DNA of 64,000 bases from contig NZ_JODC01000019.1 of assembly GCF_000720765.1 (NCBI RefSeq), forward strand, positions 62,001-126,000. The letters run 5' to 3'. Both the position numbers and the translations under genes were made by a program. The DNA comes from Streptomyces sp. NRRL S-646. GTDB taxonomy: Bacteria; Actinomycetota; Actinomycetes; Streptomycetales; Streptomycetaceae. Under the pieces are notes generated by a model. That model was not told the origin of the DNA. It did no database searches and saw only the letters and a list, made by a program, of their open reading frames with translations. The number at the start of each line of letters is the position of its first letter. Position 1 is the first letter of the stretch. Below are positions 3,059 through 49,994 of this stretch, one piece after another.

Positions 3059-3393
3059 GGATCCTCCTCGGTTAGCACCACACGGCGGTCTGGCGGACAG
3101 CCGCGTATGTCTCTCTTTCGTTAGACCTAACCGCGCCGAAGCATGAAAAATGCCCCGGACGATCACAGGCGGGGCTCCAAAGCACTACCGGAGCACCGCC
3201 GCGATGACGCGGGGCGCGCTTTCGGGCGACTCCATCGTCCGTACGGAACGATGGTGGCCGCCTGACCGGGGTGACCCGCCGTCCCGGGGGACAGTCAGGT
3301 GGGAGATCGGAGCCTCCACTTGTGGGCCGGACACGCGAGCGTCCAGCCGGTCGTCACACAAGGTTAGCAGCAACCCGGGGGTGGTGCTAACCG
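3059..3393 (-). promoter_or_regulatory. Structured infC leader with long-range 13-bp complementarity
   Basis: Read on the minus strand, CGGTTAGCACCAC (3393-3381) is perfectly complementary to GTGGTGCTAACCG (3081-3069), which ends three bases before the GAGGAGG of infC. The first segment can instead form a local hairpin, because GGTTAGCA (3392-3385) also pairs with TGCTAACC (3369-3362). Between them lie a hairpin at 3232-3254 (CCATCGT/ACGATGG) and a terminator-like stem at 3146-3175. This looks like a leader that switches between two folds, which would suit IF3 or L20 autoregulation. The transcription start was not located, and the distal arm overlaps the promoter region of the divergent gene at 3422. 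Protein binding to DNA at both copies is an alternative reading. Confidence 0.5.
3146..3175 (-). terminator. Attenuator-like hairpin in the infC leader
   Basis: On the minus strand a GCCCCG/CGGGGC stem (3175-3170 with 3157-3152) with a 12-nt loop is followed by ATTTTTC. A U-tract after a GC stem is rare in this genome, which makes an intrinsic terminator plausible. It lies about 90 bp upstream of the infC start, so it would act as an attenuator. Confidence 0.5.
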
Positions 3394-31154: not shown

Positions 31155-31242
31155 CGCGTTTTGATGTGCGCGGCAAGGGCGTGAGGACTTGGGCCCGTCG
31201 TGGACATGGCGGCGTGACACACACGAAACAGCCCGTCCCTAA

Positions 31243-31262
31243 TTTCTGTCGCCTGACAGGAA
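31243..31262. promoter_or_regulatory. Palindromic operator shared with the guanidine/urea operon
   Basis: TTTCTGTCGCCTGACAGGAA is a dyad with 7 of 9 arm positions symmetrical, 43 bp upstream of the APC permease start. With the five bases before it (CCTAA) it repeats the sequence at 43238-43262, upstream of the TetR-linked guanidine/urea operon, at nearly the same distance to the start codon. Confidence 0.75.
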
Positions 31263-31305: not shown

Positions 31306-32856
31306 GTGACGACAACCACCCCCTCCGACATACGCCCCGACCCTCCGCACTCACCGGACGACGGCTCCCTCGCGGAGTTCGGCTACCGCCAGGAACTGCA
31401 CCGCAGCCTGGGCAGGTACGCCTCCTTCGCGGCCGGGTTCTCCTTCATCTCCGTCCTGACGACCGTCTTCCAGTTCTTCGCCTTCGGGTACGCGTTCGGC
31501 GGCCCTGTCTTCTTCTGGGCCTGGCCGGCGGTGCTGGTCGGGCAGCTGCTGGTGGCCGCGTGCTTCGCAGAGCTGGCCGCCCGGTATCCGATCTCGGGCG
31601 CCATCTACCAGTGGTCCTCACGACTTTCGAACCTCACCTTCGGCTGGTTCGCCGGCTGGATCATGGTGATCGGACAGATCGTGGTGGTCGCGGCGGCGGC
31701 GCTGGCACTGCAGATGGTGCTTCCGGCGATCTGGTCGGGCTTCCAGCTCGTGGGCACCGACTCGGCGGTGACGTCGGAGGACGGCGCGGCGAACGCGGCG
31801 GTCCTCGGAGTGATCCTGCTGGTGCTGACCACGCTCGTGAACATCGTGGACAACCGGGTGATGTCCGTGGTCAACCGGGTCGGCGTGACCGCCGAGATCA
31901 TCGGTGCAGTGCTCATCGTCGTGCTGCTGCTCACCCACTCGACGCGCTCCCCCGGCATCACCTTCCACACCACGGGAGCCGCAAGTTCCGGCCTGTTCGG
32001 GGCACTTGCCGTGGGTTCCTTCACAGCCGCGTACGTGATGATCGGCTTCGACAGCGCGGGCGAGATGAGCGAGGAGACACACCACCCCCGGCGTACGGCG
32101 CCCCGCACGATCCTCACCGCACTCGGCGCCGCGGGCCTGCTCGGCGGCCTGGTCATCCTGGGCGGCCTGCTCGCCGCGCCCAGCCTTACCGACGGCCGGC
32201 TGGGCGTCGACGGCCTGAGCTACGTCCTCACCAGCCGCCTCGGCGACGGCCTCGGAAAGGTGCTGCTGGCCGATGTGGTGGTGGCGATCGCGGTGGCCAC
32301 CCTCGCCATCCAGACCGCGGCCTGCCGGATGCTGTTCTCCATGGCCCGCGACGGCCAGCTCCCCTTCTCCCGCCGCCTCGCCCGCGTCAATCCGGGCACG
32401 GGCATGCCGAACGCCCCGGCCCTCGTCGTCGGCGTCCTCGCCGCAGCCCTTCTGCTGCTCAACTTCGCCTCCCCGGACGCCTTCCTTGCCATCGGCACCA
32501 CCTGCATCGTGATGCTGTACCTGGCGTACGCGATGGTCACGGGCCCGCTCCTGATCCGCCGCCTGCGCGGCGAGTTCACCTCCGAAGGCACCGACGAGAC
32601 GGGCGGCCGGCTCTTCTCCCTCGGCCGCTGGGGCATCCCCGTCAACGCCCTCGCCCTCCTCTACGGCCTCCTCATGACGGTCAACCTGGCCTGGCCGAGG
32701 GCGGCTGTGTACGACCCGGCGGGCGGGCACTGGTACTTCCAGTGGTTCACGGTGCTGTTCCTCGCGGCGACGGTGGTGGCCGGCGGCGCGTACCGGGCTT
32801 ACCGCCGGCGGACGGCGGCCCAAAGTGATGCCGCTGTTCAGAAGGCCGCCGTCTAG
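31306..32856 (+). CDS. APC-superfamily amino acid/amine permease
   Basis: A 516-residue transporter with about twelve helices. It starts with EFGYRQELHRSLGRYASFAAGFSFISVLTT, the layout of the yeast-type and bacterial amino acid/choline permeases. Further on are ELAARYPISGAIYQWSSRLSN (conserved APC loop) and MIGFDSAGEMSEETHHPRRTAPRTIL. The substrate cannot be read from sequence. Its promoter carries the same 20-bp palindrome as the guanidine/urea-carboxylase operon 12 kb away, so it may import the substrate of that pathway or a related nitrogen compound; this is inference. Start GTG 31306 has AGGCAGG upstream. Divergent from padR. Confidence 0.9.
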   Translation: MTTTTPSDIRPDPPHSPDDGSLAEFGYRQELHRSLGRYASFAAGFSFISVLTTVFQFFAFGYAFGGPVFFWAWPAVLVGQLLVAACFAELAARYPISGAIYQWSSRLSNLTFGWFAGWIMVIGQIVVVAAAALALQMVLPAIWSGFQLVGTDSAVTSEDGAANAAVLGVILLVLTTLVNIVDNRVMSVVNRVGVTAEIIGAVLIVVLLLTHSTRSPGITFHTTGAASSGLFGALAVGSFTAAYVMIGFDSAGEMSEETHHPRRTAPRTILTALGAAGLLGGLVILGGLLAAPSLTDGRLGVDGLSYVLTSRLGDGLGKVLLADVVVAIAVATLAIQTAACRMLFSMARDGQLPFSRRLARVNPGTGMPNAPALVVGVLAAALLLLNFASPDAFLAIGTTCIVMLYLAYAMVTGPLLIRRLRGEFTSEGTDETGGRLFSLGRWGIPVNALALLYGLLMTVNLAWPRAAVYDPAGGHWYFQWFTVLFLAATVVAGGAYRAYRRRTAAQSDAAVQKAAV

Positions 32857-33517: not shown

Positions 33518-34867
33518 CTACCGGCCTACGGCACCCCTCTCCAGACACTCCACCCGGACACGGACCCTGTCGGGGTTCAGAGTCATACGGGGCTCGACGC
33601 GCGGCAGTTGAAGGTCGTTGTGCGAGAGCCGCCAGCGGGCCACGATCGTGGACAATGCCAATGTCGCCATGGTCATCGCATAGTTGTCGCCGATGCACTT
33701 GCGCGCGCCTCCGCCGAACGGAATGAAGGCACCGCGCACGTGTTCCTGCTCCGGCAGCCAACGGTCGGGATCGAAGCTGCTGGGGTGAGGATTGAACCGT
33801 GCGTCGTGGTGCATGAGATATGCGCTGTAGACGAGCGTGGTTCCGGGCGGAATCACGGCATCTGCCAGCCGGGCTTCGGTGGTGGTCGTCCGGGTGAAGA
33901 TCCATCCGGGCGGGTAGAGGCGCAGTGTCTCGGTGATGACCCGGCGTGCCAGGTCGAGCCGGGGGAGATCGTCCCAGGTGGCCGTCCGGGTGCCGAGAAC
34001 CTCATCCGTCTCGGCGCGCAACCGCTCCTGGAGCTCGGGGTGTTGGCACAGGAGATGGGCAGCCCAGGTAAGGGCCACCGCGGTGGTGTCGATACCGGCG
34101 ACGAGCAGGGTCATGATCTGAGCGTGGATCTCGGCGTCGCTCAGGGCTCGCCCCTCGTCGTCACGGGTCTCGAGGAGCATCGACAGCACATCGCCGTGGG
34201 ATTTCTCGTCCTGCCGGTACAGACCGATCGTCTTGCTCACCGCGGCCCATGCCCGGTCGCGAGCACGCTCGTAGCGCACGTTCGAGGGGAGTGGCAGGCG
34301 GCGCAGCAAAGGCGGGAGGACGGCCTGCTGGTAGATGCCCCGGAAGATGTCCGGAAGACATTCCGTGACGGTCTCCACGGCGGGCCCCGCGACGTCGGCC
34401 GTGAACAACGTTCGAGCAATTGTGCCACTCGCGAGAGAATACATCTCCGCGCCGGCATCGATGGCTCGTCCATCACTCCAGCCGACTGTGAGCGCGTCTA
34501 TCTGCTCGCTCATGATGACGGCATATTTCTGCAGGGAGGAACGAGAGAAGGCCGGCTGCAAACTACGTCGCTGTCGCCGGTGAGCGCTGTGCGGACACGA
34601 GGCGATGCCGTCCCCGAGCGCATTTCCGACGCGCTCGATGATGGGGCCGCCCTTGTCGTAGACGCGGTCGTTCAGGAGCATTTCCTGGACGAGTTCGGGT
34701 CGGCAGACCACCACGGCCTTTTGCGGACCTAACCGTATCTGTACGAGATCGCCGTACGAGGGGAGGGTTTTCAGGAACTGCAGCGGATCCCGAAGCAAGG
34801 GCAACAGATGCCCGACGAGTGGCAGTGCGCCTGGAGCGTGTGTGATGCCTTCACGGTTCGTTGCCAT
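33518..34867 (-). CDS. Cytochrome P450 paired with the terpene cyclase; contains a TTA codon
   Basis: A 449-residue P450. Present are the I-helix oxygen motif AGIDTTAV, ExxR as ETLR, PERF-type DPDRWLPE and the heme loop FGGGARKCIG with ligand C391. The N-terminal HAPGALPLVGHLLPLLRDPL and the wide spread resemble P450s that oxidise sesquiterpenes (pentalenene- and albaflavenone-type), but no subfamily is assigned. It lies 53 bp downstream of the terpene cyclase on the same strand and should oxidise its product. Leu46 (VQIRLGPQ) is encoded by TTA (34732-34730), the codon read only by the bldA tRNA, so translation should depend on bldA. Redox partners are not encoded nearby. Confidence 0.93.
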   Translation of the reverse strand: MATNREGITHAPGALPLVGHLLPLLRDPLQFLKTLPSYGDLVQIRLGPQKAVVVCRPELVQEMLLNDRVYDKGGPIIERVGNALGDGIASCPHSAHRRQRRSLQPAFSRSSLQKYAVIMSEQIDALTVGWSDGRAIDAGAEMYSLASGTIARTLFTADVAGPAVETVTECLPDIFRGIYQQAVLPPLLRRLPLPSNVRYERARDRAWAAVSKTIGLYRQDEKSHGDVLSMLLETRDDEGRALSDAEIHAQIMTLLVAGIDTTAVALTWAAHLLCQHPELQERLRAETDEVLGTRTATWDDLPRLDLARRVITETLRLYPPGWIFTRTTTTEARLADAVIPPGTTLVYSAYLMHHDARFNPHPSSFDPDRWLPEQEHVRGAFIPFGGGARKCIGDNYAMTMATLALSTIVARWRLSHNDLQLPRVEPRMTLNPDRVRVRVECLERGAVGR

Positions 34868-34920
34868 GACATACCAGCCTTCCTTGGCCGATCCAGGTAT
34901 CGCTCAGCGACCGACCGTTA

Positions 34921-35961
34921 CTACGCCGGGATGTACAGTCCTGGGCTCGGGAGCAGCACCTGAAGATGAGCATGCTGCTGATCCGACTCGTCCGAGGCAC
35001 CGGGGAGTGTGTAGCGACTGGTGTTGCCGTACCACTGCAGGCACCCGTTGGTCCACTGCCGCATTCCGGCAGTGACCTTCAGAATCGCCTCACGGGTGGC
35101 GCGCGGCACGCCACGACTCACCAGGAAGGGCAAGAGCTGTTCTTCGGCGGCCAGGAAGTCGGCTACGCGCGCCTCGACCTTGGCAACGGCCCGGTCGATG
35201 GCCTGCTGCAGCGAGATTCCGCCGGCATGCTGCATCACTATGACAACGTTGTGGAAATCTCCACGTTTGCTGTCCAGGTGGACTGAATGCAGGTCGTTCT
35301 GCCAGGCGACAACATCGCTCGCGGCTTCGATTATCCGCCTGAACAGGCCTGTCCCGTATATGCCTTCTGGAACCTCTGTGTCCTGACTGAGTTCCACCAG
35401 ATCGAATCCGAATTCCATACCTACGGACAACCGCCTGGTCTGGGTGAAACTCTCGATTCCTGGAGGAGTGCCACGGAACCGGTTCTCGGATTCCTCGGCG
35501 AATCCCTGGAAGAATAGCTCCAGGTGCCGGTTGAGCCGTCCATGAAGCGTCGGCGAGAGCCTTTCGCCGGTACGCACGGCCAGATCCGAAAGAGCCCTGG
35601 TGAAAGGAGTCCGGTCTCGCGCGGGGGCAGGGTCTTCTCCGGTATTGATGATGTCCGTCAGGCGCCGCTGAACCGGAGCCCATGCTTCCGGGGCGTCGTA
35701 GACCTTCAACGTGTGCAGGTCGTCCAGGATGAAGGTGAAGAAAAGCCATTCCGCACACAGGCAGAGATCACTGAACGATGCTTCCGGATAGGTCCAGGCG
35801 ACAAAGCGCCCGTAGCCTGCCCGCATCCGCTCCTGGCCGCCTCGCGTCTTGGCCAGCCCGAGGCTCTCTCCGAGTGAGCTGACGTATTCCTCGATCTTCT
35901 GGATGTGTGGACTTACGGCCGGCGGGGCGGGTTCCACAAACGTCGGGATCATGGCGAGCAC
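34921..35961 (-). CDS. Class I terpene cyclase with variant metal-binding motifs
   Basis: About 346 residues, the length of bacterial sesquiterpene or diterpene cyclases. The first Mg site is D80-D81-L-H-T84 in FFTFILDDLHTLK, lacking the third acid of DDxx(D/E). The NSE triad is N222-D-L-H-S226-V-H-L-D230, with Asp for the final Glu. The C-terminal RY pair (R316, Y317) is present. It should cyclise a prenyl diphosphate; product unknown. GTG 35961 has GGAGG five bases upstream; ATG at 35973 or 35952 is also open. Numbering is from that GTG. Sequence is less GC-rich than its neighbours, which with the P450 suggests an acquired pair. Confidence 0.9.
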   Translation of the reverse strand: MLAMIPTFVEPAPPAVSPHIQKIEEYVSSLGESLGLAKTRGGQERMRAGYGRFVAWTYPEASFSDLCLCAEWLFFTFILDDLHTLKVYDAPEAWAPVQRRLTDIINTGEDPAPARDRTPFTRALSDLAVRTGERLSPTLHGRLNRHLELFFQGFAEESENRFRGTPPGIESFTQTRRLSVGMEFGFDLVELSQDTEVPEGIYGTGLFRRIIEAASDVVAWQNDLHSVHLDSKRGDFHNVVIVMQHAGGISLQQAIDRAVAKVEARVADFLAAEEQLLPFLVSRGVPRATREAILKVTAGMRQWTNGCLQWYGNTSRYTLPGASDESDQQHAHLQVLLPSPGLYIPA

Positions 35962-36564
35962 GAGGACCTCCATGTCTGGGCGCAGAAGTCGGCTGAGGCA
36001 GATGAGGTGCGGTCAGGTTGCCTGCTCGCGCGGCGAGAAGGCCGAGGAACAGCCGCAGCGAGCGGCCGCGGCACGAGCCGCGACTCGGGCTTCTCCTTCC
36101 GTGTTGGCGCGAACAGGACGCTCTGCCTTCGGCGGTACACCCTTCAATCACATCGCAGTTCGGTTCACATCGGAAGTGGGCGTCCCTGATCCAGCCGTGA
36201 ACGAACCGAACAGCCAACTGAACGTTCGACGATCGGAACTGACGTTTCCCCTCCTCAAGCCCATGGCTTGAGCAACAGCCCTCGGTCGACCTGACCGGCC
36301 AGAGCCAGCTCACCGAGGGGACGAGCAAGGTGACGACTCTCAGTAGACGCAGACCCGCCAACGGGAACAAGTGATCACAGGGGGGCGCATCGGGGCGCAA
36401 AAGTGGTCACGTAAGCGCATTGGATGGCCGATAGTGCACAGGCACTGATGAACGCGCTCGTGCGCCGGAGCCTGTCATCGCGATCCGGCGCGCAGGCGGG
36501 CGCCCCAACGCCCTGCGACTGCACCTCGCCCCGCTGTCAGCGCCGTCTCGTACGCTTGATCGCG
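35962..36564. other. Intergenic region upstream of the terpene genes, possible remnants
   Basis: About 600 bp with lower GC than the flanks and no convincing gene. It must hold the terpene promoter. A perfect dyad CTCAAGCC-CAT-GGCTTGAG lies at 36254-36272. No terminal inverted repeats or transposase motif were recognised, but the sequence looks like a junction scar rather than native intergenic DNA. TACGCT eight bases before ATG 36565 could be the -10 box of the next gene. Confidence 0.4.
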
Positions 36565-37512
36565 ATGAGACGCCGTACGCCACCTCCGCCCTCTCCCCTG
36601 CCGCAGCGCGACGGGGTGGACCCCGTGCGCGTGCGGTTGCCGGCCGGGGACGAGTGGGCGACCGTACGGGATCATCTGGTGGCGCGGCTCGCGGCCGGGG
36701 CCGGGGTGATCGACGCCATGCTGGACGCGGGGCGGATCGTGGACGGCTCCGGGCATCCCGTGCCGCGGGACGCGGCGTATGTGCCGGGGATGTTCGTGTG
36801 GTTCCACCGGGAGCTGCCGGATGAGGAGCGGGTGCCGTTCACCGTCGACGTCGTGTACCGGGACGAGCACGTGGTCGTGGCGGACAAGCCTCACTTCCTG
36901 GCCACCACCCCGCGCGGGAGCCATGTCGCCGAGACGGCCCTGGCACGGCTGCGACGAGAGCTGGGCCTCCCGACGCTGGGCGCGGCGCACCGGCTGGACC
37001 GGCTGACGGCCGGGCTGGTGCTGTTCACCGTGCGGACCGAGGAGCGCGGCGCCTACCAGTCACTCTTCCGTGACAGGCGGGTGTCGAAGGAGTACGAGGC
37101 AGTGGCCCGGTACGACGCTGCGCTGGACCTCCCGCGCACCGTGCGCAGCCGGATCGTCAAGGAGCGCGGAGTCCTGGCGGCCCGCGAGGTCGAAGGCGAG
37201 CCCAATGCCGTGAGCCGCGTCGAGCTGATGGAGCACCGGGCCGACGGGCTGGGGCGATACCGGCTCGTTCCGAGCACCGGGCAGACCCATCAGCTGCGCG
37301 TCCATATGAACGCGCTCGGCGTGCCCGTCCTCGGCGATCCGCTCTACCCCGTGGTGACCGCCCCCGTGCCGGCCGGTGACTTCCGCCGCCCGCTCCAACT
37401 GCTGGCGCGGGCACTGGAGTTCACCGATCCGGTCACAGGGGCGGAGCACCGGTTCCGCAGTGCCCGAACCCTCGCTGCCTGGAGCTCCTACGGCGACTGG
37501 GCCGGTCAGTAG
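36565..37512 (+). CDS. RluA-family pseudouridine synthase
   Basis: A 315-residue enzyme that converts uridine to pseudouridine in rRNA or tRNA. The catalytic Asp is in AAHRLDRLTAGLVLF. Upstream are VVYRDEHVVVADKPHFLATTP, and downstream SKEYEAVARYD and the C-terminal PSTGQTHQLRVHMNALGVPVLGDPLY, all typical of RluA. The ATG at 36565 lies at the family's N-terminus; a longer frame exists upstream but its peptide is not RluA-like. A possible -10 box so close to the start suggests a leaderless mRNA. It overlaps the convergent conservon P450 stop by 7 bp. Confidence 0.92.
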   Translation: MRRRTPPPPSPLPQRDGVDPVRVRLPAGDEWATVRDHLVARLAAGAGVIDAMLDAGRIVDGSGHPVPRDAAYVPGMFVWFHRELPDEERVPFTVDVVYRDEHVVVADKPHFLATTPRGSHVAETALARLRRELGLPTLGAAHRLDRLTAGLVLFTVRTEERGAYQSLFRDRRVSKEYEAVARYDAALDLPRTVRSRIVKERGVLAAREVEGEPNAVSRVELMEHRADGLGRYRLVPSTGQTHQLRVHMNALGVPVLGDPLYPVVTAPVPAGDFRRPLQLLARALEFTDPVTGAEHRFRSARTLAAWSSYGDWAGQ

Positions 37513-38987
37513 CCGCGCCACCACAGCAGGAAGCGACGCCAGGCGCCCTTCGGGCGGGCCGGTTCCTCAGGCGCGGGCGCCGCCTTGGGCGGTGCGGCCG
37601 GCTGGGGTTCCGCGACAGCGGCCGCCGGCTCGGGCTGCTTGGTGCCGATCTCCCAGTCGGTGCGCTGCGACGGGACCGGGGCGTGGCCGGGCAGCGCCTT
37701 CACGTCCTGCTGGGGCTTCGGCTCGAAGTGGACCGGCAGCTCCACCAGGTGCCGGTTCGAGATGGACGCCCGCCAGCGCAGCTCGCTCTCCTCGCAGGCC
37801 AGTTGGATGTCCGAGAGGCGGCTCAGCAGCGCGTCGACGCCGACGTCGGCGATGGCACGGCCGATGTCCTGGCCGGGGCATTCGTGAGGTCCGCCGCTGA
37901 AGGCGAGGTGGGAGCGGTTGCCCATCATGTTGGCCGACGGGTCGGGGCGTACGCGCGGGTCGACGTTGCCCGGTGCGATGCCCAGGAGGAGGCCGTCGCC
38001 CTTGCGGATGCGCTGTCCGCCCAGCTCGGTCTCCTGTTTGGCGAAGTAGCCGAGGATCGTGCTGAACGGCGGCTCGTCCCACAGGGACTGCTCGACCGCC
38101 TGGGGCACGGTCATCTGGCCGCCGTTGAGCTGGGCACGGAAGCCGGGGTCGGTGAGGACCACTCGCAGCACGTTGGCGAGGAGGTTGGCGGTGGATTCGA
38201 ACGCGACGATCAGGACGACACGCAGGTGCTGGCCGACCTCCTCGTCGGTGAGCCCCGCCGGGTGGTTGATCAGGTGGCTGGTGAAGTCGTCCTCGGGTAC
38301 GGCACGCCGGCGGGCCGTGAGCCGCATCAGGGTTTCCATGATGTATGCGTTGCTGGCGATGGCGGTCTCGGTGCCCTTGAGCATGTCGCGGGCGGCCTGC
38401 ACGAGCCGGTCGTTGTACTCCTCGGGCATGCCGAGGATCTCGCACATCACCGCCATCGGCAGGTGCTCGGCGAACTGACTGACCAGGTCGGCCCGGCCCT
38501 CTTCACAGAACTGGTTGACGAGGTGCTGGGTCGCGCGGTTGATGTGGCGGCGGATGCCCCGGTGGTCGATGGTCGACATGGCGCCGGTGACCGCCCCGCG
38601 CAGCCGCAGGTGTTCGTCGCCCTCGGCGTGGCAGCAGATGGGCTGCCACGCGACGTGCGGCATGAGCGGGTGGTCCGGCTTGAACGTGCCGTCCTGCAGG
38701 GCGGTCCACAACCGGGTGTCGCGGCTGAACAGCGAGGGACTGCTCACCATCTGCAGGTTCTCGCTGTGGCCGAGCACCACCCAGATCGGCACGTCCTCGT
38801 GCAGCAGCGTGGGGGCCACGGTGCCGTGCTCGGCACGGAGCTTTTCGTACACGGCTCCGAGGTCCTCCGCCTCGGGGCCGTACAGTCGTCGCAGCCCGTC
38901 GGGGCCGATGCCGTGCGCGGGGCAGCCGGGGGGCGGGCCGGCCATGGACTCGTCCGTACCGGTCGGGGAGAAGGGTTCAGGCCTCAC
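37506..38987 (-). CDS. cvnE: Conservon cytochrome P450 lacking the EXXR motif (CvnE)
   Basis: A 493-residue P450-like protein. The heme loop FSGGPHECPGQDIG has ligand C370, but the K-helix EXXR is replaced: the usual AVEELLRYEPP reads AVEQSLWDEPP, giving Q300-x-x-W303. The I-helix carries FESTAN. A Pro/Ala-rich tail of about 70 residues ends in a basic WRRFLLWWRGY. From memory, CYP157-family members found in Streptomyces conservons are known to lack EXXR. It is the last gene of the conservon, 172 bp after the GTPase. Whether it turns over substrate is uncertain. GTG 38987 has GGAG eight bases upstream. Confidence 0.9.
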   Translation of the reverse strand: MRPEPFSPTGTDESMAGPPPGCPAHGIGPDGLRRLYGPEAEDLGAVYEKLRAEHGTVAPTLLHEDVPIWVVLGHSENLQMVSSPSLFSRDTRLWTALQDGTFKPDHPLMPHVAWQPICCHAEGDEHLRLRGAVTGAMSTIDHRGIRRHINRATQHLVNQFCEEGRADLVSQFAEHLPMAVMCEILGMPEEYNDRLVQAARDMLKGTETAIASNAYIMETLMRLTARRRAVPEDDFTSHLINHPAGLTDEEVGQHLRVVLIVAFESTANLLANVLRVVLTDPGFRAQLNGGQMTVPQAVEQSLWDEPPFSTILGYFAKQETELGGQRIRKGDGLLLGIAPGNVDPRVRPDPSANMMGNRSHLAFSGGPHECPGQDIGRAIADVGVDALLSRLSDIQLACEESELRWRASISNRHLVELPVHFEPKPQQDVKALPGHAPVPSQRTDWEIGTKQPEPAAAVAEPQPAAPPKAAPAPEEPARPKGAWRRFLLWWRGY

Positions 38988-39159
38988 GATGATCGCTCCG
39001 AAGCTGAAGTGGATCCGGTGTACATGAAGTGATGGGCTCCCCCGGTCCGGGCGGCTCGGACGAAGCCGCAGACGTGGGGGAGGTCGTGCAGGGGGGCGGG
39101 GCCGTACGGCTCGGGGACGGGACGGGGTGACGTACGGCCCGGCTCGATCGGTGCGTGGC

Positions 39160-39780
39160 TCAGGTGGACGCCTTCGCCCTGGCCAGCGAATGCAGGAAGC
39201 GCAGCAGCGTCATCAGGACGTCCCGGCTGGAGGCCCGGCGGCGTGCGTCGCAGTCGATGATCGGGATCTCCTCGGCCAGGTCGAGCGCGGCGCGCAGGTC
39301 GGCGACGGGGTAACGGGGGGCGTCGGGGAAGGAGTTGACGGCGATCACGAAGGGCACGCCGCGCTCCTCCAGCCGCCCGATGACGTCGAAGCTGACCTCG
39401 AGCCGCCGGGTGTCGATCAGTACGACCGCGCCGAGCGCGCCCTCGAACAGCCCGTTCCACAGGAACCAGAAGCGTTCCTGGCCGGGGGTGCCGAAGAGGT
39501 AGAGCACCAGTTGGTCGGTGATGCTGATGCGGCCGAAGTCCATGGCCACGGTGGTGGCCGTCTTGGACTCGGAGCCGTAGTTGTCGTCGACCCCGACGCC
39601 GGCCTGCGTCATGGTCTCCTCGGTGGTCAGCGGCCTGATCTCGCTGACCGAGCCGACCATCGTCGTCTTGCCGACTCCGAAGCCGCCCACGATCACGATC
39701 TTCACCGCGGCCTGGGCCGTGTGCGGCAGATGATCCGCTGTTCGTGGTCCGGGGATGGTGTCAGAGCCTTTGAAGTCCAT
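39160..39780 (-). CDS. cvnD: Conservon Ras-like GTPase (CvnD)
   Basis: A 206-residue ATP/GTP-binding protein of the conservon type. P-loop GGFGVGKTT (32-40), switch region TQAGVGVDDNYG, G3 as GTPGQ (97-101) and a G4 reading N149-S-F in place of NKxD, which is typical for this MglA-like group. It probably relays a signal at the membrane together with CvnA-C, in a module compared with G-protein-coupled receptor systems. Its start overlaps the DUF742 gene by 20 bp. Confidence 0.95.
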   Translation of the reverse strand: MDFKGSDTIPGPRTADHLPHTAQAAVKIVIVGGFGVGKTTMVGSVSEIRPLTTEETMTQAGVGVDDNYGSESKTATTVAMDFGRISITDQLVLYLFGTPGQERFWFLWNGLFEGALGAVVLIDTRRLEVSFDVIGRLEERGVPFVIAVNSFPDAPRYPVADLRAALDLAEEIPIIDCDARRRASSRDVLMTLLRFLHSLARAKAST

Positions 39781-40174
39781 GCATCACCGCTTCGAGAAGG
39801 GAACGGTCGGGGAGCGCCTGCCGGACGATCGGGGCGCGCGCCTGCACCAGTTCTGCCGTCAGCATCTCGGTCAGCAGCACGGTCACCACGCTGAACGGCA
39901 GACTCAGATAGGCCGAGAGCTCGGCCACCGAGAGGGGGGCCGTGCAGAGCCGGAGCATCGCCGTCTGCTCCGGGGTGGCGGAAGGCGGCGGGTCGGCGCG
40001 CGCCACGATTAACGTGACGAGGTCGATGTCGGCGCGTTCCCCGTCCGGCCCGGCCACGACGTACAGCCGCTCCGGGGCCTTCGTGTCACCCTGCTGGCCT
40101 TCCTTGGCAGGTGTCGGGGGAGGTTCCGCGGTTTCCTGACTGGGGTATCGCCGCCGGCGTTGCGGAGGAGTCAT
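39761..40174 (-). CDS. cvnC: Conservon DUF742 protein (CvnC)
   Basis: A 137-residue protein with a disordered Pro/Gln-rich N-terminus and the DUF742 winged-helix-like core (RLYVVAGPDGERADIDLVTLIV ... LCTAPLSVAELSAYLSLPFSVVTVLLTEML). CvnC is thought to bind CvnA and the GTPase. The start overlaps the CvnB stop by 4 bp (ATGA). Confidence 0.95.
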   Translation of the reverse strand: MTPPQRRRRYPSQETAEPPPTPAKEGQQGDTKAPERLYVVAGPDGERADIDLVTLIVARADPPPSATPEQTAMLRLCTAPLSVAELSAYLSLPFSVVTVLLTEMLTAELVQARAPIVRQALPDRSLLEAVMHGLQRL

Positions 40175-40578
40175 ACGGTCTGCCCGTTGCGCCGGGGCGG
40201 GCTGGTGAGATGGGCCCCGATGCGTACGACGAGATCGCGCATGCGGTTGCTCATCAGACCGGGTTCGGCGACCACGTCGGAGAGCACCGCGAGGTAGGCG
40301 TTGGCTCCCGCGGCCATCAGATAGAAGTAGCCGCCGTTGATCTCGATGATGACCAGCTTCATCCGTCCGTCGCTGCCCGGGATCTCATGGGCGACGGCAC
40401 CCGCCAGGCTCTGCAGCCCCGCGCAGGCCGCGGCGACGCGGTCGGCGGCGTCCGGATCGCCCCCGTAGCGAGCGATGCGCAGGCCGTCGGCGGAGAGCAC
40501 GACGATCATCTCGATGCCCGGTACTCCGTCGGCGAGATCCTTGAGCATCCAGTCGAAGTTGGCTCGCTGCTGGATCAC
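40171..40578 (-). CDS. cvnB: Conservon roadblock/LC7 protein (CvnB)
   Basis: A 135-residue roadblock-fold protein (LDWMLKDLADGVPGIEMIVVLSADGLRIA-type start, here FDWMLKDLADGVPG, then AACAGLQSLAGAVAHEI and MKLVIIEINGGYFYLMAAG). Roadblock proteins act as partners or GAP-like regulators of small GTPases, here CvnD. GTG 40578 overlaps the CvnA stop (GTGA); longer frames reading upstream through the kinase gene are not real. Confidence 0.95.
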   Translation of the reverse strand: MIQQRANFDWMLKDLADGVPGIEMIVVLSADGLRIARYGGDPDAADRVAAACAGLQSLAGAVAHEIPGSDGRMKLVIIEINGGYFYLMAAGANAYLAVLSDVVAEPGLMSNRMRDLVVRIGAHLTSPPRRNGQTV

Positions 40579-42167
40579 TTGTGGTCCCTCTCGTCGTCGG
40601 CCTCGATATGGGCCGGCTCGTTGGTCGGCTGGGTGAATGCGGTCGGGTCCGGGTCGCCTTTGAGGCCCTCCCAGAACGCCTCGACCCACAGCCCGGGTTC
40701 GGTTTCCTTGGTCTCCGGCTCCGGTTCCGGCACGGGCGTCGCCCAGGCAGGCCTGCTCGCCCGGGCCTCCCGCTCGGCCTCTTCGGCGGCGGCCTGTTCG
40801 GCGAGCCGCTGGCTGAGCGGGATCTTGACCCGGCTGCGGCGCTGCGGCAGGCCGCCCGCGGTCCACTCGGTGACCTCGGGGATCTCGTCCTCCATGGACA
40901 CGCCGGCCGGGATGCGCGGGCTGGTGGGACGCCGCCGCTTCGGTGCGCGCTTGGGACCTTCGAGCGCACCGAGTTCGAGCTTGGGCGCCGCGGTGGCGCC
41001 GATGCCGTGGGCGAGGCCGGGCGCCTCGTCGCTGGTCACCATCACGCGCGGGATGACGAGGACGGCGCGGACACCGCCGTACGCGGAGGCGCGCAGCGAG
41101 ATCTGCATGTCGAACGCCTTGCACAGGCGGCCCACGACGGCCAGGCCCAGTCGGGGGGAGTCGCCGAGTTCCTGGAGGTCGACGCCGGCCTGGGCGCGCT
41201 CCAGCATGGCCTCGGCCTTGGCGCGGGCCTCCTCGCTGAGGCTGACGCCGGCGTCCTCGATCTCGATGGCGATGCCGGTCTGCACCTCGGTCGCGATGAC
41301 GTGCACCTTGGTCTGCGGCGGCGAGTAGCGCGTGGCGTTGTCGAGGAGTTCGGCGCAGGCGTGGATGACCGGCTCGACGGAGATGCCGCGGATGTTGACC
41401 TTGGCGATGTTGTCGAGCGAGATGCGCCGGTACTCCAGGATCCGGGACATGGCGCCGCGCAGCACGCTGTACAGCGGTACGGGCTGCGGCCACTGGCGGC
41501 CGGGGCGGCCGCCGCCGAGCACCGCGATGGAGTCGGCGAGGCGGCCGATCAGCGCGGTGCCGTGGTCGATGCGCAGCAGGTCGTCGAAGACCTCGGGGTT
41601 GCGGCCGTGGTCCTCCTCCATCTCCCGGAGTTCCTTGGCCTGTTGGTGCACGATCGCCTGGACGCGGCGGGCGATGTTGACGAAGGAGCGCTGCGAGGAG
41701 TCCCGCAGGGCTTCCTCGGTGTCGATGATGTCGAGCATCCGCCTGACCAACGCCACCTGGGCCTTGGGCAGGTCGCGGTAGGCGGGGTCGATGTCGCCGA
41801 GTAGGCGGACCACCTCTCTGGGGGAATGGCCGCCGCGCAGGTACTCGATGGCGGTGGGGACGATCTCGTGCGTGAGGCGGTGGATCTCCTGGTCGTGTCC
41901 GGCGATGCGCCGTTCCGTGTACGCACGGTGACGGGCGCTCTCCTCGCGCACGGCCCGCAGGGCTCGGCCGCGGCGTACCGCTTCGGCCGTCGTCGCGACC
42001 ACCAGGAGCGTGGCGACGGCGCCGCACCACACGACGGCCGCGCGGGCCGGTACGGCCACCAGGGCGACGGCTGCTCCGGTCGCTGCGGCCATCAGTATGG
42101 CGGGCAGCAACAGCACGCGCGCGTAAGGAAGTTCACGGCGCCCGGGAGGGGATTGAACACTCACCAT
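40575..42167 (-). CDS. cvnA: Conservon sensor kinase-like membrane protein (CvnA)
   Basis: A 530-residue protein with two N-terminal helices (LLLPAILMAAATGAAVALVAV, AVVWCGAVATLLVVATTAEAV), a long coiled coil, a dimer-helix region lacking an ordinary H-box (SFVNIARRVQAIVHQQAKEL) and a GHKL ATPase domain (ELLDNATRYSPP for N-box, EIEDAGVSLSEE for G1, LGLAVVGRLCKAF for G2). The tail is Pro/Glu-rich. CvnA starts the conservon signalling module, gathering with CvnB-D at the membrane. The closest S. coelicolor counterpart is probably cvn9/rarA, involved in aerial growth and antibiotic control; this is from memory. ATG 42167 has GAGGG five bases upstream. Confidence 0.94.
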   Translation of the reverse strand: MVSVQSPPGRRELPYARVLLLPAILMAAATGAAVALVAVPARAAVVWCGAVATLLVVATTAEAVRRGRALRAVREESARHRAYTERRIAGHDQEIHRLTHEIVPTAIEYLRGGHSPREVVRLLGDIDPAYRDLPKAQVALVRRMLDIIDTEEALRDSSQRSFVNIARRVQAIVHQQAKELREMEEDHGRNPEVFDDLLRIDHGTALIGRLADSIAVLGGGRPGRQWPQPVPLYSVLRGAMSRILEYRRISLDNIAKVNIRGISVEPVIHACAELLDNATRYSPPQTKVHVIATEVQTGIAIEIEDAGVSLSEEARAKAEAMLERAQAGVDLQELGDSPRLGLAVVGRLCKAFDMQISLRASAYGGVRAVLVIPRVMVTSDEAPGLAHGIGATAAPKLELGALEGPKRAPKRRRPTSPRIPAGVSMEDEIPEVTEWTAGGLPQRRSRVKIPLSQRLAEQAAAEEAEREARASRPAWATPVPEPEPETKETEPGLWVEAFWEGLKGDPDPTAFTQPTNEPAHIEADDERDHK

Positions 42168-42483
42168 GTAGGCCCTCTGAAAAAGATCGGCTGGGTGTCT
42201 GGGGAGCTTGCAAGTGGGGTACGCATGGGACTGCGCTGGATCTTCGGTATTTTTGGGAACAAGCGCACGAATACACCTCAACTCGGTGCGCTGCGGGCGA
42301 GCTTAGTCCGACCGGATCATCGCCGTGTCATATTCAGCAAGCACCTGAAATGGGACCGGACCAAGGGGTACTCTCGGCTCCATTTGCACACTCAGCGCCC
42401 ATTCGAACACGCCGCGTCACGACGTACGGAAGTACGAAAAACACTCACCGTGACGAGTGAAGATCAGCTTCCGCGCCGGTCGG
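42168..42483. other. Conservon promoter region
   Basis: About 315 bp, less GC-rich than its surroundings, between the conservon start and the TetR stop. It should carry the conservon promoter. No small gene, strong hairpin or recognised operator was seen. Confidence 0.4.
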
Positions 42484-43119: not shown

Positions 43120-43242
43120 GCGTTCGATCCTCGCACACGGCCGGGCGGAACGATCTCCGGGCGATCTCCGGACCGGCTTCGTGAGGGCTCGGTAACCCAC
43201 CGGCAACGCGCGGGCAATGCCCGTGACCCGCCCGGCTCCTAA

Positions 43243-43262
43243 TTTCTGTCGGGCGACAGAAA
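43243..43262. promoter_or_regulatory. Perfect palindromic operator of the guanidine/urea operon
   Basis: TTTCTGTCG, a GG spacer and CGACAGAAA form a perfect 9-bp dyad, 40 bp before the first gene's ATG and 124 bp upstream of the divergent tetR. With the CCTAA before it, 14 consecutive bases (CCTAATTTCTGTCG) are the same as at 31238-31251. TetR-type binding site. Confidence 0.85.
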
Positions 43263-43301: not shown

Positions 43302-44126
43302 ATGGCGACAGCGACCACATACGGAGCCCGCGACCACGCACGCGCCCAGGAGGGCACACACGCCGAGGCCATGCCCGTCGTCCCGGCCGCCGCCTGGCCG
43401 GACCCGCCCTGCGCGGCGGGCCATCTGGTCTGGGCCGAGACGGTCGCGGGCGGCAACTACACCCACCGGGTGCTCGCCCGCGGCACCGAGCTGCGCCTGA
43501 CCGACCTGCACGGCGAGGCCTGCGCCCATCTGCTGCTGTTCGTGGCCGACCGGCCCTGGGAGCGGCTGAACGTCGCCGACACGGTGAAGGTCCAGTGGAA
43601 CGCCTACCTCGGCGACGGCCGGCTCCTCCTGTCCGACCAGGGGCGCGTCCTCGCGAGTGTCGTCACCGACACCTCAAGGCGGCACGACGCGCTGTGCGGC
43701 ACCTCCACCCTCGTACGCAACACGGAGCGCTACGGCGACGGCACCCCGCAGTCCTCCTCCCCCGCGGGCCGCGAGCTGTTCAAGCTGGCGGCCGCGAAGA
43801 ACGGCCTGCAGACGCGCGACCTGCCGCCCTCGCTGTCGTTCTTCCAGGGCGTGGAGGTGCGTGAGGACGGGTCCCTGGACTTCACCGGGTCCGCCGGCCC
43901 CGGCGGCAGCGTCACGCTCCGCGCCGAACAGGACGTCACCGTGCTGATCGCCAATGTGCCGCACCCGGCCGATCCACGCCCCGACTACGTCAGCACCCCG
44001 CTGGAGGTCCTCGCCTGGCGCGCCGCGCCGACCGAACCGGGCGATCCGCTGTGGGAGGCCACGCCCGAGGGCCGCCGCGCCTTCCTCAACACCGCCGAAT
44101 TCCTTGCCGCGAGGGGGCTCGCATGA
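43302..44126 (+). CDS. Urea-carboxylase-associated protein 1 (DUF1989), probable carboxyguanidine deiminase subunit
   Basis: A 274-residue DUF1989 protein: LVWAETVAGGNYTHRVLARGTELRLTDLHGEACAHLLLF, then DRPWERLNVADTVKVQWNAYLGDGRLLLSDQGRVLASVVTDTS and CGTST. The DUF1989 pair next to a urea-carboxylase-like enzyme was shown to be carboxyguanidine deiminase (CgdAB), which turns carboxyguanidine into allophanate and ammonia. So this operon more likely degrades guanidine than urea. First gene of the operon, behind the palindrome. Its stop overlaps the next start (ATGA). Confidence 0.9.
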   Translation: MATATTYGARDHARAQEGTHAEAMPVVPAAAWPDPPCAAGHLVWAETVAGGNYTHRVLARGTELRLTDLHGEACAHLLLFVADRPWERLNVADTVKVQWNAYLGDGRLLLSDQGRVLASVVTDTSRRHDALCGTSTLVRNTERYGDGTPQSSSPAGRELFKLAAAKNGLQTRDLPPSLSFFQGVEVREDGSLDFTGSAGPGGSVTLRAEQDVTVLIANVPHPADPRPDYVSTPLEVLAWRAAPTEPGDPLWEATPEGRRAFLNTAEFLAARGLA

Positions 44127-48291: not shown

Positions 48292-48344
48292 CCGGCGCGC
48301 ACACCGCGAGGCGAGCATGAGTGAACCACACCGAGGAGCAAGAG

Positions 48345-49994
48345 ATGTCCGCTGTGAACCGTGTCCGTGCCGCCTACGCCCGCATCGAGGCAGTGGACCG
48401 TCCCGAGATCTGGATCGACCTGCGCCCGCAGGCCGAGGTCGAGGCGGAGGCGGACGCGATCGACGCCCGCGTGGCGGCGGGTGAGCAACTGCCCCTTGCC
48501 GGACGCCTGCTCGCGGCGAAGGGCAACATCGACGTGGCCGGTCTGCCCACCACCGCGGGTTGCCCTGCGTACGCCTACGAGCCCGAGGCGGACGCTCCGG
48601 TCGTCGCCCGCCTGCGCGCGGCGGGCGCGGTCGTGCTGGGCACGACGAATCTGGACCAGTTCGCGACGGGCCTGGTGGGCACGCGCTCGCCCCACGGCGC
48701 GGTCCGCAACGCGCACGACCCTGCCCGGATCAGCGGCGGCTCCAGCTCCGGCTCGGCCGTCGCCGTGGCCCTGGGCATCGTCGACCTCGCGCTGGGCACG
48801 GACACCGCGGGCTCGGGCCGGGTCCCGGCCGCGTTCAACGGCATCGTCGGCCTCAAACCGACCCGCGGTCTGGTCCCCACGGCGGGAGTCGTCCCGGCCT
48901 GCGCCTCCATCGACTGCGTGACGGTGTTCGCCCGCACCCTCCCGGAGGCCGAACAGGCGCTGTCCTTCATGACCTCCCCGCCGGACCGCGAACTCCCGCC
49001 GCTCCCCCAGCGCACCCCCGGACCGTGGCGCATCGCGGTCCCGCCCCGGGAACAGCTCGGCGAGCTGGACGAGGGCTGGGCGGAGGCGTACGAGGCGGCG
49101 GTACGGCAGCTCGAAGCGGCCGGAGCCGACATCCGCACCCTCGATCTGGCCCCTTTCACCGAGGCCGCGGCGATGCTCTACGAGGGCGCGTTCGTCGCCG
49201 AGCGCTATACGGCGGTCGGCGGCTTTGTCGACAAGGCGATCGCGGACGGCATCGCGGGCCTGGACCCCACCGTCGCCGGAATCATCACCCGCGCCCGCGA
49301 CATCCCGGCTCACCGGCTCTACGCCGACACCGACCGCCTGACCGCGCTGCGTGCCCGTGCCCTGGCGGAACTCGCCGACACGGACGCCCTGCTGCTGCCC
49401 ACCACCCCCGGCCATCCGACCCTCGCCGAGGTGGCCGCCGACCCGCTCGGCGCCAACGCCCGCCTGGGCCGCTTCACCAACTCCACCAACCTCTTCGACC
49501 TGTCCGCCCTCGCCGTCCCGGCGGGCGAGGTGGACGGCCTGCCGTTCGGCGTGATGCTGATCGGCCCGGCGTTCACGGACGACCGCCTGGCGCGGATCGC
49601 CGCACTGCTCCAGCCGGACACACAGGTGGCGGTGGTGGGCGCGCACCTGTCGGGCCAGCCCCTCAACCCCCAACTCCTGACCCTGGGCGCCCGTTTGGAC
49701 CGCACGACCACGACCGCCCCCGCCTACCGCCTGTACGCCCTGCGGACGACGCCACCGAAGCCGGGCCTCGTCCACGTCGGCGAGGGCGGCACGGCGATCG
49801 AGGCGGAGGTCTGGACTCTCCCCGCGGCGGGCCTGGGCCGCCTGCTGGCGGCGCTCCCCCGCCCGATGACCCTGGGCGGCGTGCAACTGGCGGACGGCAC
49901 CCAGGTCCCCGGCTTCCTGTGCGAACCGTCCGCCCTCACGGACGCCGAGGACATCACGTCGTACGGCGGCTGGCGGGCGTACCTGAGCCGCTGA
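48345..49994 (+). CDS. atzF: Allophanate hydrolase
   Basis: A 549-residue amidase-signature enzyme that splits allophanate to ammonia and carbon dioxide. The Ser-cisSer-Lys triad is seen as K59 (LAAKGNIDV), S133 region (ISGGSSSGSAVAVA) and S157 (GTDTAGSGRVPAAF). The C-terminal domain after residue about 430 (LYALRTTPPKPGLVHVGEGGTAIEAEVW ... GWRAYLSR) is complete, as in full-length AtzF. ATG 48345 has GAGGAG upstream; a GTG eight codons earlier is also in frame. It is the last gene, 53 bp after the carboxylase, and finishes the guanidine/urea pathway. Confidence 0.95.
   Translation: MSAVNRVRAAYARIEAVDRPEIWIDLRPQAEVEAEADAIDARVAAGEQLPLAGRLLAAKGNIDVAGLPTTAGCPAYAYEPEADAPVVARLRAAGAVVLGTTNLDQFATGLVGTRSPHGAVRNAHDPARISGGSSSGSAVAVALGIVDLALGTDTAGSGRVPAAFNGIVGLKPTRGLVPTAGVVPACASIDCVTVFARTLPEAEQALSFMTSPPDRELPPLPQRTPGPWRIAVPPREQLGELDEGWAEAYEAAVRQLEAAGADIRTLDLAPFTEAAAMLYEGAFVAERYTAVGGFVDKAIADGIAGLDPTVAGIITRARDIPAHRLYADTDRLTALRARALAELADTDALLLPTTPGHPTLAEVAADPLGANARLGRFTNSTNLFDLSALAVPAGEVDGLPFGVMLIGPAFTDDRLARIAALLQPDTQVAVVGAHLSGQPLNPQLLTLGARLDRTTTTAPAYRLYALRTTPPKPGLVHVGEGGTAIEAEVWTLPAAGLGRLLAALPRPMTLGGVQLADGTQVPGFLCEPSALTDAEDITSYGGWRAYLSR

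Follow-up and report, generated by a model that had tools for sequence, protein, structure and literature searches.

Predicted AmtR-Type Operators Before a Candidate Guanidine Importer Gene and a Guanidine Carboxylase-Type Operon in Streptomyces sp. NRRL S-646

A 64-kb stretch of the genome of Streptomyces sp. NRRL S-646, referred to here as the window, contains two similar 20-bp dyads, one of them before the gene of an APC-type permease and the other before an operon annotated for urea carboxylation. Do these sites place both units under one repressor, and what would such a repressor sense? According to the original prediction, a single TetR-family regulon links the permease with the carboxylase operon, and this proposal is supported by site conservation and by published relatives. 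We estimate a probability of about 0.88 that one AmtR-type repressor uses both dyads as its operators and acts on a guanidine importer gene and a guanidine carboxylase operon. The identity of the releasing signal is a separate and more tentative matter. The features concerned are the following:

31243..31262, plus strand: permease-promoter operator, predicted AmtR-type, TTTCTGTCGCCTGACAGGAA
31306..32856, plus strand: APC-type permease, predicted guanidine importer; TIGR03428 at 654 bits, below cut-off; PF13520
42484..43119, minus strand: amtR, TetR-family repressor AmtR of 211 aa; PF00440, AmtR homology and fold matches
43243..43262, plus strand: operon-promoter operator, predicted AmtR-type, TTTCTGTCGGGCGACAGAAA, a perfect dyad
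43302..44126, plus strand: UAAP1, DUF1989, carboxyguanidine deiminase subunit type; TIGR03425 at 314 bits, above cut-off; PF09347
44123..44725, plus strand: UAAP2, DUF1989, carboxyguanidine deiminase subunit type; TIGR03424 at 327 bits, above cut-off (slightly longer frame); PF09347
44722..48291, plus strand: guanidine carboxylase type (annotated urea carboxylase), 1189 aa, with biotin carboxylase, CT and biotinyl domains; D696, D919
48321..49994, plus strand: allophanate hydrolase; TIGR02713 at 710 bits, above cut-off

The two dyads in the window and in other genomes

Both dyads are located where they had been described and agree at 16 of 20 positions, with CCTAATTTCTGTCG, a run of 14 consecutive bases, common to the two. 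The distance to the start codon, predicted to be 40-43 bp in both cases, is indeed 43 bp for the permease (GTG at 31306); for the operon it is 39 bp (ATG at 43302), slightly outside that range. The divergent tetR gene does adjoin the second dyad, at a distance of 123 bp. The dyads are separated by exactly 12,000 bp, which looks like a coincidence, as the distance in relatives varies from about 2.4 to 13 kb. The permease had been called otherwise unassigned, which turned out to be incorrect: among NCBIfam models, it is matched best by TIGR03428, 'permease, urea carboxylase system'. Its score of 654.4 bits is below the curated cut-off of 740.45, a value reached in none of the 246 genus genomes, and the protein is a close relative of this family and not a member of it.

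Similar sequences might also recur by chance or represent a general promoter feature. The bare 14-bp core CTGTC-N4-GACAG could be taken in this sense, since it occurs at 12 places in the whole genome against 10 for the reversed control, i.e., at chance frequency. The full pattern TTTCTGTC-N4-GACAGAAA, allowing up to three mismatches, has two matches in the window, where 0.04 would be expected. A genome scan of the kind that the original prediction had proposed as a check returned, at up to two mismatches, only the two dyads, the reversed control giving none. As the bare core is at chance level and the full pattern is not, the signal is carried by the flanking TTT/AAA and the pairing. A wider regulon in the same genome was considered as well; across the 10.7 Mb, the pattern with up to three mismatches matches 7 places vs. 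5 for the reversed control. With the core alone also at the chance level given above, no sites were added.

The survey of the genus covered 246 genomes. UAAP1 is present in 69 of them, seven of which form a separate lineage without a site of the main pattern. Two or more sites (up to two mismatches, anywhere in the genome) were detected in 60 of the 62 main-type operon genomes vs. 3 of the 177 genomes without UAAP1. The two operon genomes with a single site are G001, where the contig begins within the permease, and G044, in which no permease was found. Matches at this stringency also appear outside the regulon: at least one is present in 45 of the 177 genomes without UAAP1, and the reversed control was matched in 11 of 246 genomes (hand count of the table). 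In the aligned loci, window included, a site lies upstream of UAAP1 in 62/62 and upstream of the permease in 59/60. The permease count includes one genome (G139) with the permease on a short contig where UAAP1 was undetected, and the exception is G233, with its second site about 2 kb before the permease. The ends of the sites differ by promoter, being GACAGGAA in 57/59 permease sites and GACAGAAA in 60/62 operon sites. Adjoining tandem dyads, full or degenerate, are found upstream of the permease in L079, L075, L053, and L111.

A longer pattern, CTAATTTCTGTC-N4-GACAGRAA, occurs in at least 120 stretches of public genomes. The 80 of these that were listed were all examined, and every one of their records is titled as actinobacterial. 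Among these 80 loci, there are 85 exact matches, with 48 before UAAP1, 29 before the permease, and 8 elsewhere. The last group comprises two matches that run off the fetched piece (L182, L190), two with the permease start about 0.5-0.8 kb further downstream (L192 and L208, an extra open frame being listed in L208), two that are the opposite strand of the symmetric operon site (L217, L233), one case of the G233 type (L195), and one permease-type promoter with a GlnR-like box and an operator (L207) but no permease match in the 6 kb fetched downstream. Occurrence of the motif at many unrelated promoters, which had been named as evidence that would speak against the regulon, was not observed: 77 of the 85 listed matches precede the two expected genes, and the other eight were not shown to serve an unrelated gene. 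This conservation refutes the idea of a chance or general promoter feature, whose probability we consider negligible.

Several other recurring dyads were noticed. A variant of approximate form TTTCGGTCA-NN-CGACAGAAW, on either strand, is present in L146, L147, L148, and L150 and at G199:C1:3292299-3292318; in L146 and L148 it stands before a gene read as SsgA-family. All five of these genomes have amtR and no UAAP1. The dyad before the SsgA-like gene was considered as a site that may mark a second AmtR target in genomes without the operon. The palindrome TTTCTGTCTCAGGACGGAAA (G024:C14, G122:C41, G212:C18, with near matches in G221, G032, and G183) and the dyad TTTCTGTG-N4-CACAGAAA (G070, G161, G166, G179, G204, G082) are perhaps each the site of another regulator.

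The repressor and the rearranged loci

By sequence and predicted fold, the product of the tetR gene is identified as AmtR. It matches AmtR of M. smegmatis (5e57) with an E value of 5.6e-36 and AmtR of C. glutamicum (5dy1) with 4.3e-33, the best non-AmtR entry having only 2.6e-12. The 14 best PDB fold matches of its predicted model (mean pLDDT 89) are all AmtR chains. AmtR, taken at E up to 1e-25, is found in 69/69 genomes with UAAP1 vs. 18/177 without it; in two of these 18, G201 and G242, amtR sits at the very end of its contig, and the operon may be missing from the assembly only. Fourteen operon-less genomes (L119-L132) retain amtR orthologues that are 66-78% identical, with no operator within three mismatches in the fetched pieces. 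AmtR can therefore do without the guanidine regulon, as these 14 genomes demonstrate. In 11 of the 14, a pseudouridine synthase homologue adjoins amtR, and in most of them amtR is near a long, helicase-like gene close to tatC (names by reading).

The arrangement of the genes varies across the genus. The tree on which it was followed is midpoint-rooted only, does not include the window as a row, and was read by eye. In the early-branching genomes, the permease, amtR, and UAAP1 follow in order with little or nothing between them. A clade of 48 tree rows is split in nearly all cases, an insert of about 6-11 kb separating the permease from amtR, as in the window, and both operators persist. L071 is one compact row in this clade, and the duplicate short loci L140, L141, L143, and L153 are mislabelled as split on the tree, although they come from compact genomes. 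The insert consists of pseudouridine synthase, P450-like, and conservon-like genes. In the window, its main part is the block at 37506-42281 with a P450-like gene, a block that we take to be conservon-like. The window also has, at 33518-35973 between the permease and the operon, a P450 gene with pentalenene oxygenase and albaflavenone monooxygenase as best models, both below cut-off. This gene adjoins one read as a terpene synthase, and close counterparts are found only in some relatives (L073, L084).

One genome (G218) has amtR more than 1 Mb away, yet both operators persist. In another (G097), a sodium/solute symporter-like gene (TIGR00813 at 98 bits, below the cut-off of 184) occupies the permease slot behind a one-mismatch operator, and the genome has no TIGR03428 match at E 1e-150.

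The seven genomes of the separate lineage (G003, G007, G020, G063, G111, G207, G243) have the permease and UAAP1 adjacent and an AmtR that is 40-46% identical. Upstream of the permease, six of the seven carry TACCTGTC-N4-GACAGGTA, which is one base off in L110; the core and spacing are unchanged, and more 11-bp-spaced repeats are located above the palindrome. In G111, the one of the seven that was fetched further, the five genes and amtR run in the same direction, with amtR last. As far as these sequences indicate, operator flanks and AmtR diverge together.

Could the dyads be bound by another regulator, with the adjacent tetR gene as a bystander? The 14 fetched genomes with amtR and no sites and the persistence of both sites in G218 are in line with this. 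Such an arrangement nevertheless seems very improbable given that AmtR is present in all 69 UAAP1 genomes, that operator flanks co-diverge with AmtR, and that the dyad in the window has the core and the spacing of the published AmtR consensus, TAtCTGTCa-n2-cGACAGATAT, a 22-bp sequence cited from Chen et al. 2013 in the available part of PMC8864220.

A class-wide search detected UAAP1 in 26 of 296 genomes, and 19 additional loci were fetched, 17 of them from outside the genus. Outside the genus, amtR is included in the fetched piece of 11 loci; in 10 of these, the core, with at most one mismatch, lies immediately ahead of a gene of the set, and the remaining one, L173, has amtR and no core at this stringency. 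Looser matches to the core also arise by chance within genes, among them genes of loci that lack amtR, e.g., L168, L169, L174, and L175. Two of these, L168 and L169, combine UAAP1, UAAP2, and allophanate hydrolase, and their pieces have neither a carboxylase match nor amtR. Neither a core dyad upstream of their genes nor a riboswitch at gathering score was found in them.

Promoter layout and published AmtR systems

Further elements accompany each operator:

31203-31207, plus strand: further 11-bp-spaced repeat GACAT, permease promoter
31214..31229, plus strand: GlnR-type box of the permease promoter, GTGAC-n6-GAAAC; 9/9 to gTnAc-n6-GaAAc
31240..31245, plus strand: TAATTT, putative -10-like hexamer overlapping the operator; same at 43240-43245
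43192..43207, plus strand: GlnR-type box of the operon promoter, GTAAC-n6-GCAAC; 8/9 to the consensus
43214-43218, plus strand: further 11-bp-spaced repeat GCAAT, operon promoter

In the aligned loci, CTAA ahead of the operator is conserved in both promoter sets, and the conserved columns upstream of each operator follow an 11-bp period. The consensus used for scoring is the S. coelicolor GlnR box gTnAc-n6-GaAAc of Table 2 in PMC10704036 (available part). Within 50 bases upstream of the permease, the best GlnR-box score is 8 or 9 in 57/59 loci vs. 0.8% of shuffled upstreams, and the box has the same offset in 51 of the 59. Operon upstreams scored at a fixed place reach 8 or 9 in 55/62 loci; the shuffle control applies to the 50-base permease scan and not to this fixed-place score, and since relatives are non-independent, none of these fractions is a probability. 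The 50-base scan of the operon upstreams reaches a score of 8 in 0/62 because the box begins at -51. Both promoters are thus of a two-input type as read from their sequence, a conserved GlnR-type box, which the original prediction had missed, being located upstream of the AmtR-type operator.

A mechanism can be proposed on this basis. We infer that AmtR, encoded between the two operators, binds both in this strain and would hold down the importer gene and the carboxylase operon together. The -10-like TAATTT overlaps the operator, so that bound AmtR would block initiation. The GlnR-type box would mediate activation of each promoter under nitrogen limitation, and full expression would require both nitrogen limitation, acting through GlnR, and release of AmtR.

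The control of the orthologous genes by AmtR has reportedly been shown in S. avermitilis. In that species, Chen et al. (2013) are said to have defined AmtR sites upstream of both sav6700 and sav6709, and AmtR was reportedly assigned only a marginal role. The set of amtR, permease, carboxylase, and amidase genes has been described in ten actinobacteria including S. avermitilis (sav6709, sav6698, sav6697, sav6701); there the permease gene lies elsewhere, amtR (sav6701) is divergent, and the link between them was drawn from gene co-occurrence (PMC4222082). The window shares with S. avermitilis the gene set, the separate permease, the divergent amtR, and the CTGTC-N4-GACAG core. The two differ in the flanks, cited for S. 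avermitilis as TAt/ATA in the available text vs. TTT/AAA in the window. Neither GlnR boxes beside both operators nor a guanidine reading appears in the available passages on the S. avermitilis regulator, AmtRsav.

In M. smegmatis, AmtR binds and represses the orthologous genes (PMC4222082), and GlnR binds and activates msmeg_2184, the counterpart of the permease gene (PMC3662644 and PMC4222082, available parts). The msmeg_2184-2189 cluster resembles the window in having a permease, two urf genes, a carboxylase, and an amidase and in being, according to those parts, AmtR-repressed and GlnR-activated. It differs in that amtR is not co-localised and that the cluster is described as urea metabolism. 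The C. glutamicum AmtR regulon, with the box CTAT-N6-ATAG, has a homologous repressor and a similar dyad geometry. There, however, AmtR is the central regulator of some 30 genes and is PII-released, and it differs in a half-site base and in ligand-domain residues, as far as the available text describes it.

The core of the regulon, i.e., AmtR, permease, and carboxylase with the CTGTC-N4-GACAG box, is already in print for S. avermitilis and relatives. The present analysis adds the two-input layout, operators that survive a 6-11 kb insertion, the transporter swap, the co-diverged operator, and, in a small sample, the riboswitch alternation described below. The strings 'guanidin' and 'guanidine' have no occurrences in PMC4222082, PMC3662644, PMC4617892, PMC8864220, or PMC10704036, and 'AmtR' has none in PMC12186494; we do not claim that a guanidine test is unpublished.

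The substrate and the candidate signal of AmtR

The names in NCBIfam and in older papers favour a urea pathway, as annotated, in which the permease would import urea. The residues of the carboxylase point elsewhere. Guanidine carboxylases are defined by Asp at K. lactis positions 1330 and 1584 (PMC11410670, available part). In the window protein, D696 is aligned with Asn 1330 (chain numbering) of urea amidolyase 5i8i, and D919, within GLGD, is opposite the second defining position, as counted by hand on the printed alignment, so that Asp is found at both. Furthermore, carboxyguanidine deiminase is the current reading of the DUF1989 pair (Schneider 2020, available part), and urea does not release M. 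smegmatis AmtR (PMC4222082). Judging from these residues, guanidine is a more probable substrate than urea. The urea reading was set aside for the Asp residues and appears improbable, with the caveat that the first defining column has D in 13 of the 16 fetched loci that include it and M in three (L165, L174, L175). Two of the latter, L174 and L175, carry a guanidine-I riboswitch, which means that the residue at this column does not reliably indicate the substrate in all loci. An APC permease often accompanies degradation genes controlled by this riboswitch, according to the available part of PMC11410670.

The guanidine-I riboswitch (RF00442) was not found near the operon of the window. At gathering score, the window yields a single match, the Streptomyces sRNA Scr1601 (RF02830, 180 bits) at 3145-3355. 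Among other-genus loci without amtR on the piece, RF00442 is present in two of six (L174 and L175, not L161, L165, L168, or L169). It is present in none of the 10 scanned other-genus loci with amtR (L167 being outside the scan) and in none of the 10 scanned Streptomyces loci. These data suggest, for a small sample, that the AmtR-type operator alternates with the guanidine-I riboswitch. Control by the riboswitch concerns the same substrate but employs an RNA sensor, and the scanned Streptomyces loci have the AmtR-type operator instead.

What, then, might release AmtR? It could report the overall nitrogen state of the cell via PII (GlnK), as happens in Corynebacterium, with no specificity for the pathway; the AmtR of C. 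glutamicum is released by the PII protein (PMC8864220, available part). Nitrogen control in M. smegmatis, however, remains intact without AmtR and is lost without GlnR (PMC4222082), and a route for nitrogen input is already present at both promoters in the form of the GlnR-type box. The ligand domain also argues against such a relay. In 28 aligned AmtRs, D111 and E180 are invariant and E130 is conserved in at least 90%; all three are kept in M. smegmatis AmtR, but C. glutamicum AmtR has E, I, and M in their place. We regard the PII relay as unlikely.

The pathway, the riboswitch alternation, the negative urea test, and the acidic residues together make guanidine or a pathway intermediate the best candidate for the signal of AmtR. 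In Streptomyces and other actinomycetes with the operon, AmtR may be guanidine-sensing, guanidine or an intermediate binding at D111, E130, and E180 and releasing the operator. A repressor of this kind would be a protein stand-in for the guanidine riboswitch, with GlnR supplying the nitrogen signal. We hold this as a possibility somewhat short of an even chance because the 14 AmtRs from operon-less genomes retain these acidic residues as well. A comparison of 58 operon-locus AmtRs with these 14 yielded three differing positions, 25, 140, and 183, with no clear story.

Earlier effector trials with M. smegmatis AmtR employed urea and amino acids, neither of which had any effect on binding (PMC4222082), and guanidine has since replaced urea as the assigned substrate of the pathway, according to the available text. 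If guanidine releases AmtR, a guanidine-sensing repressor would be in hand, and the signal of AmtR outside Corynebacterium would be explained. In that case, the two-input promoter, responding to nitrogen and guanidine, would also be usable as a sensor.
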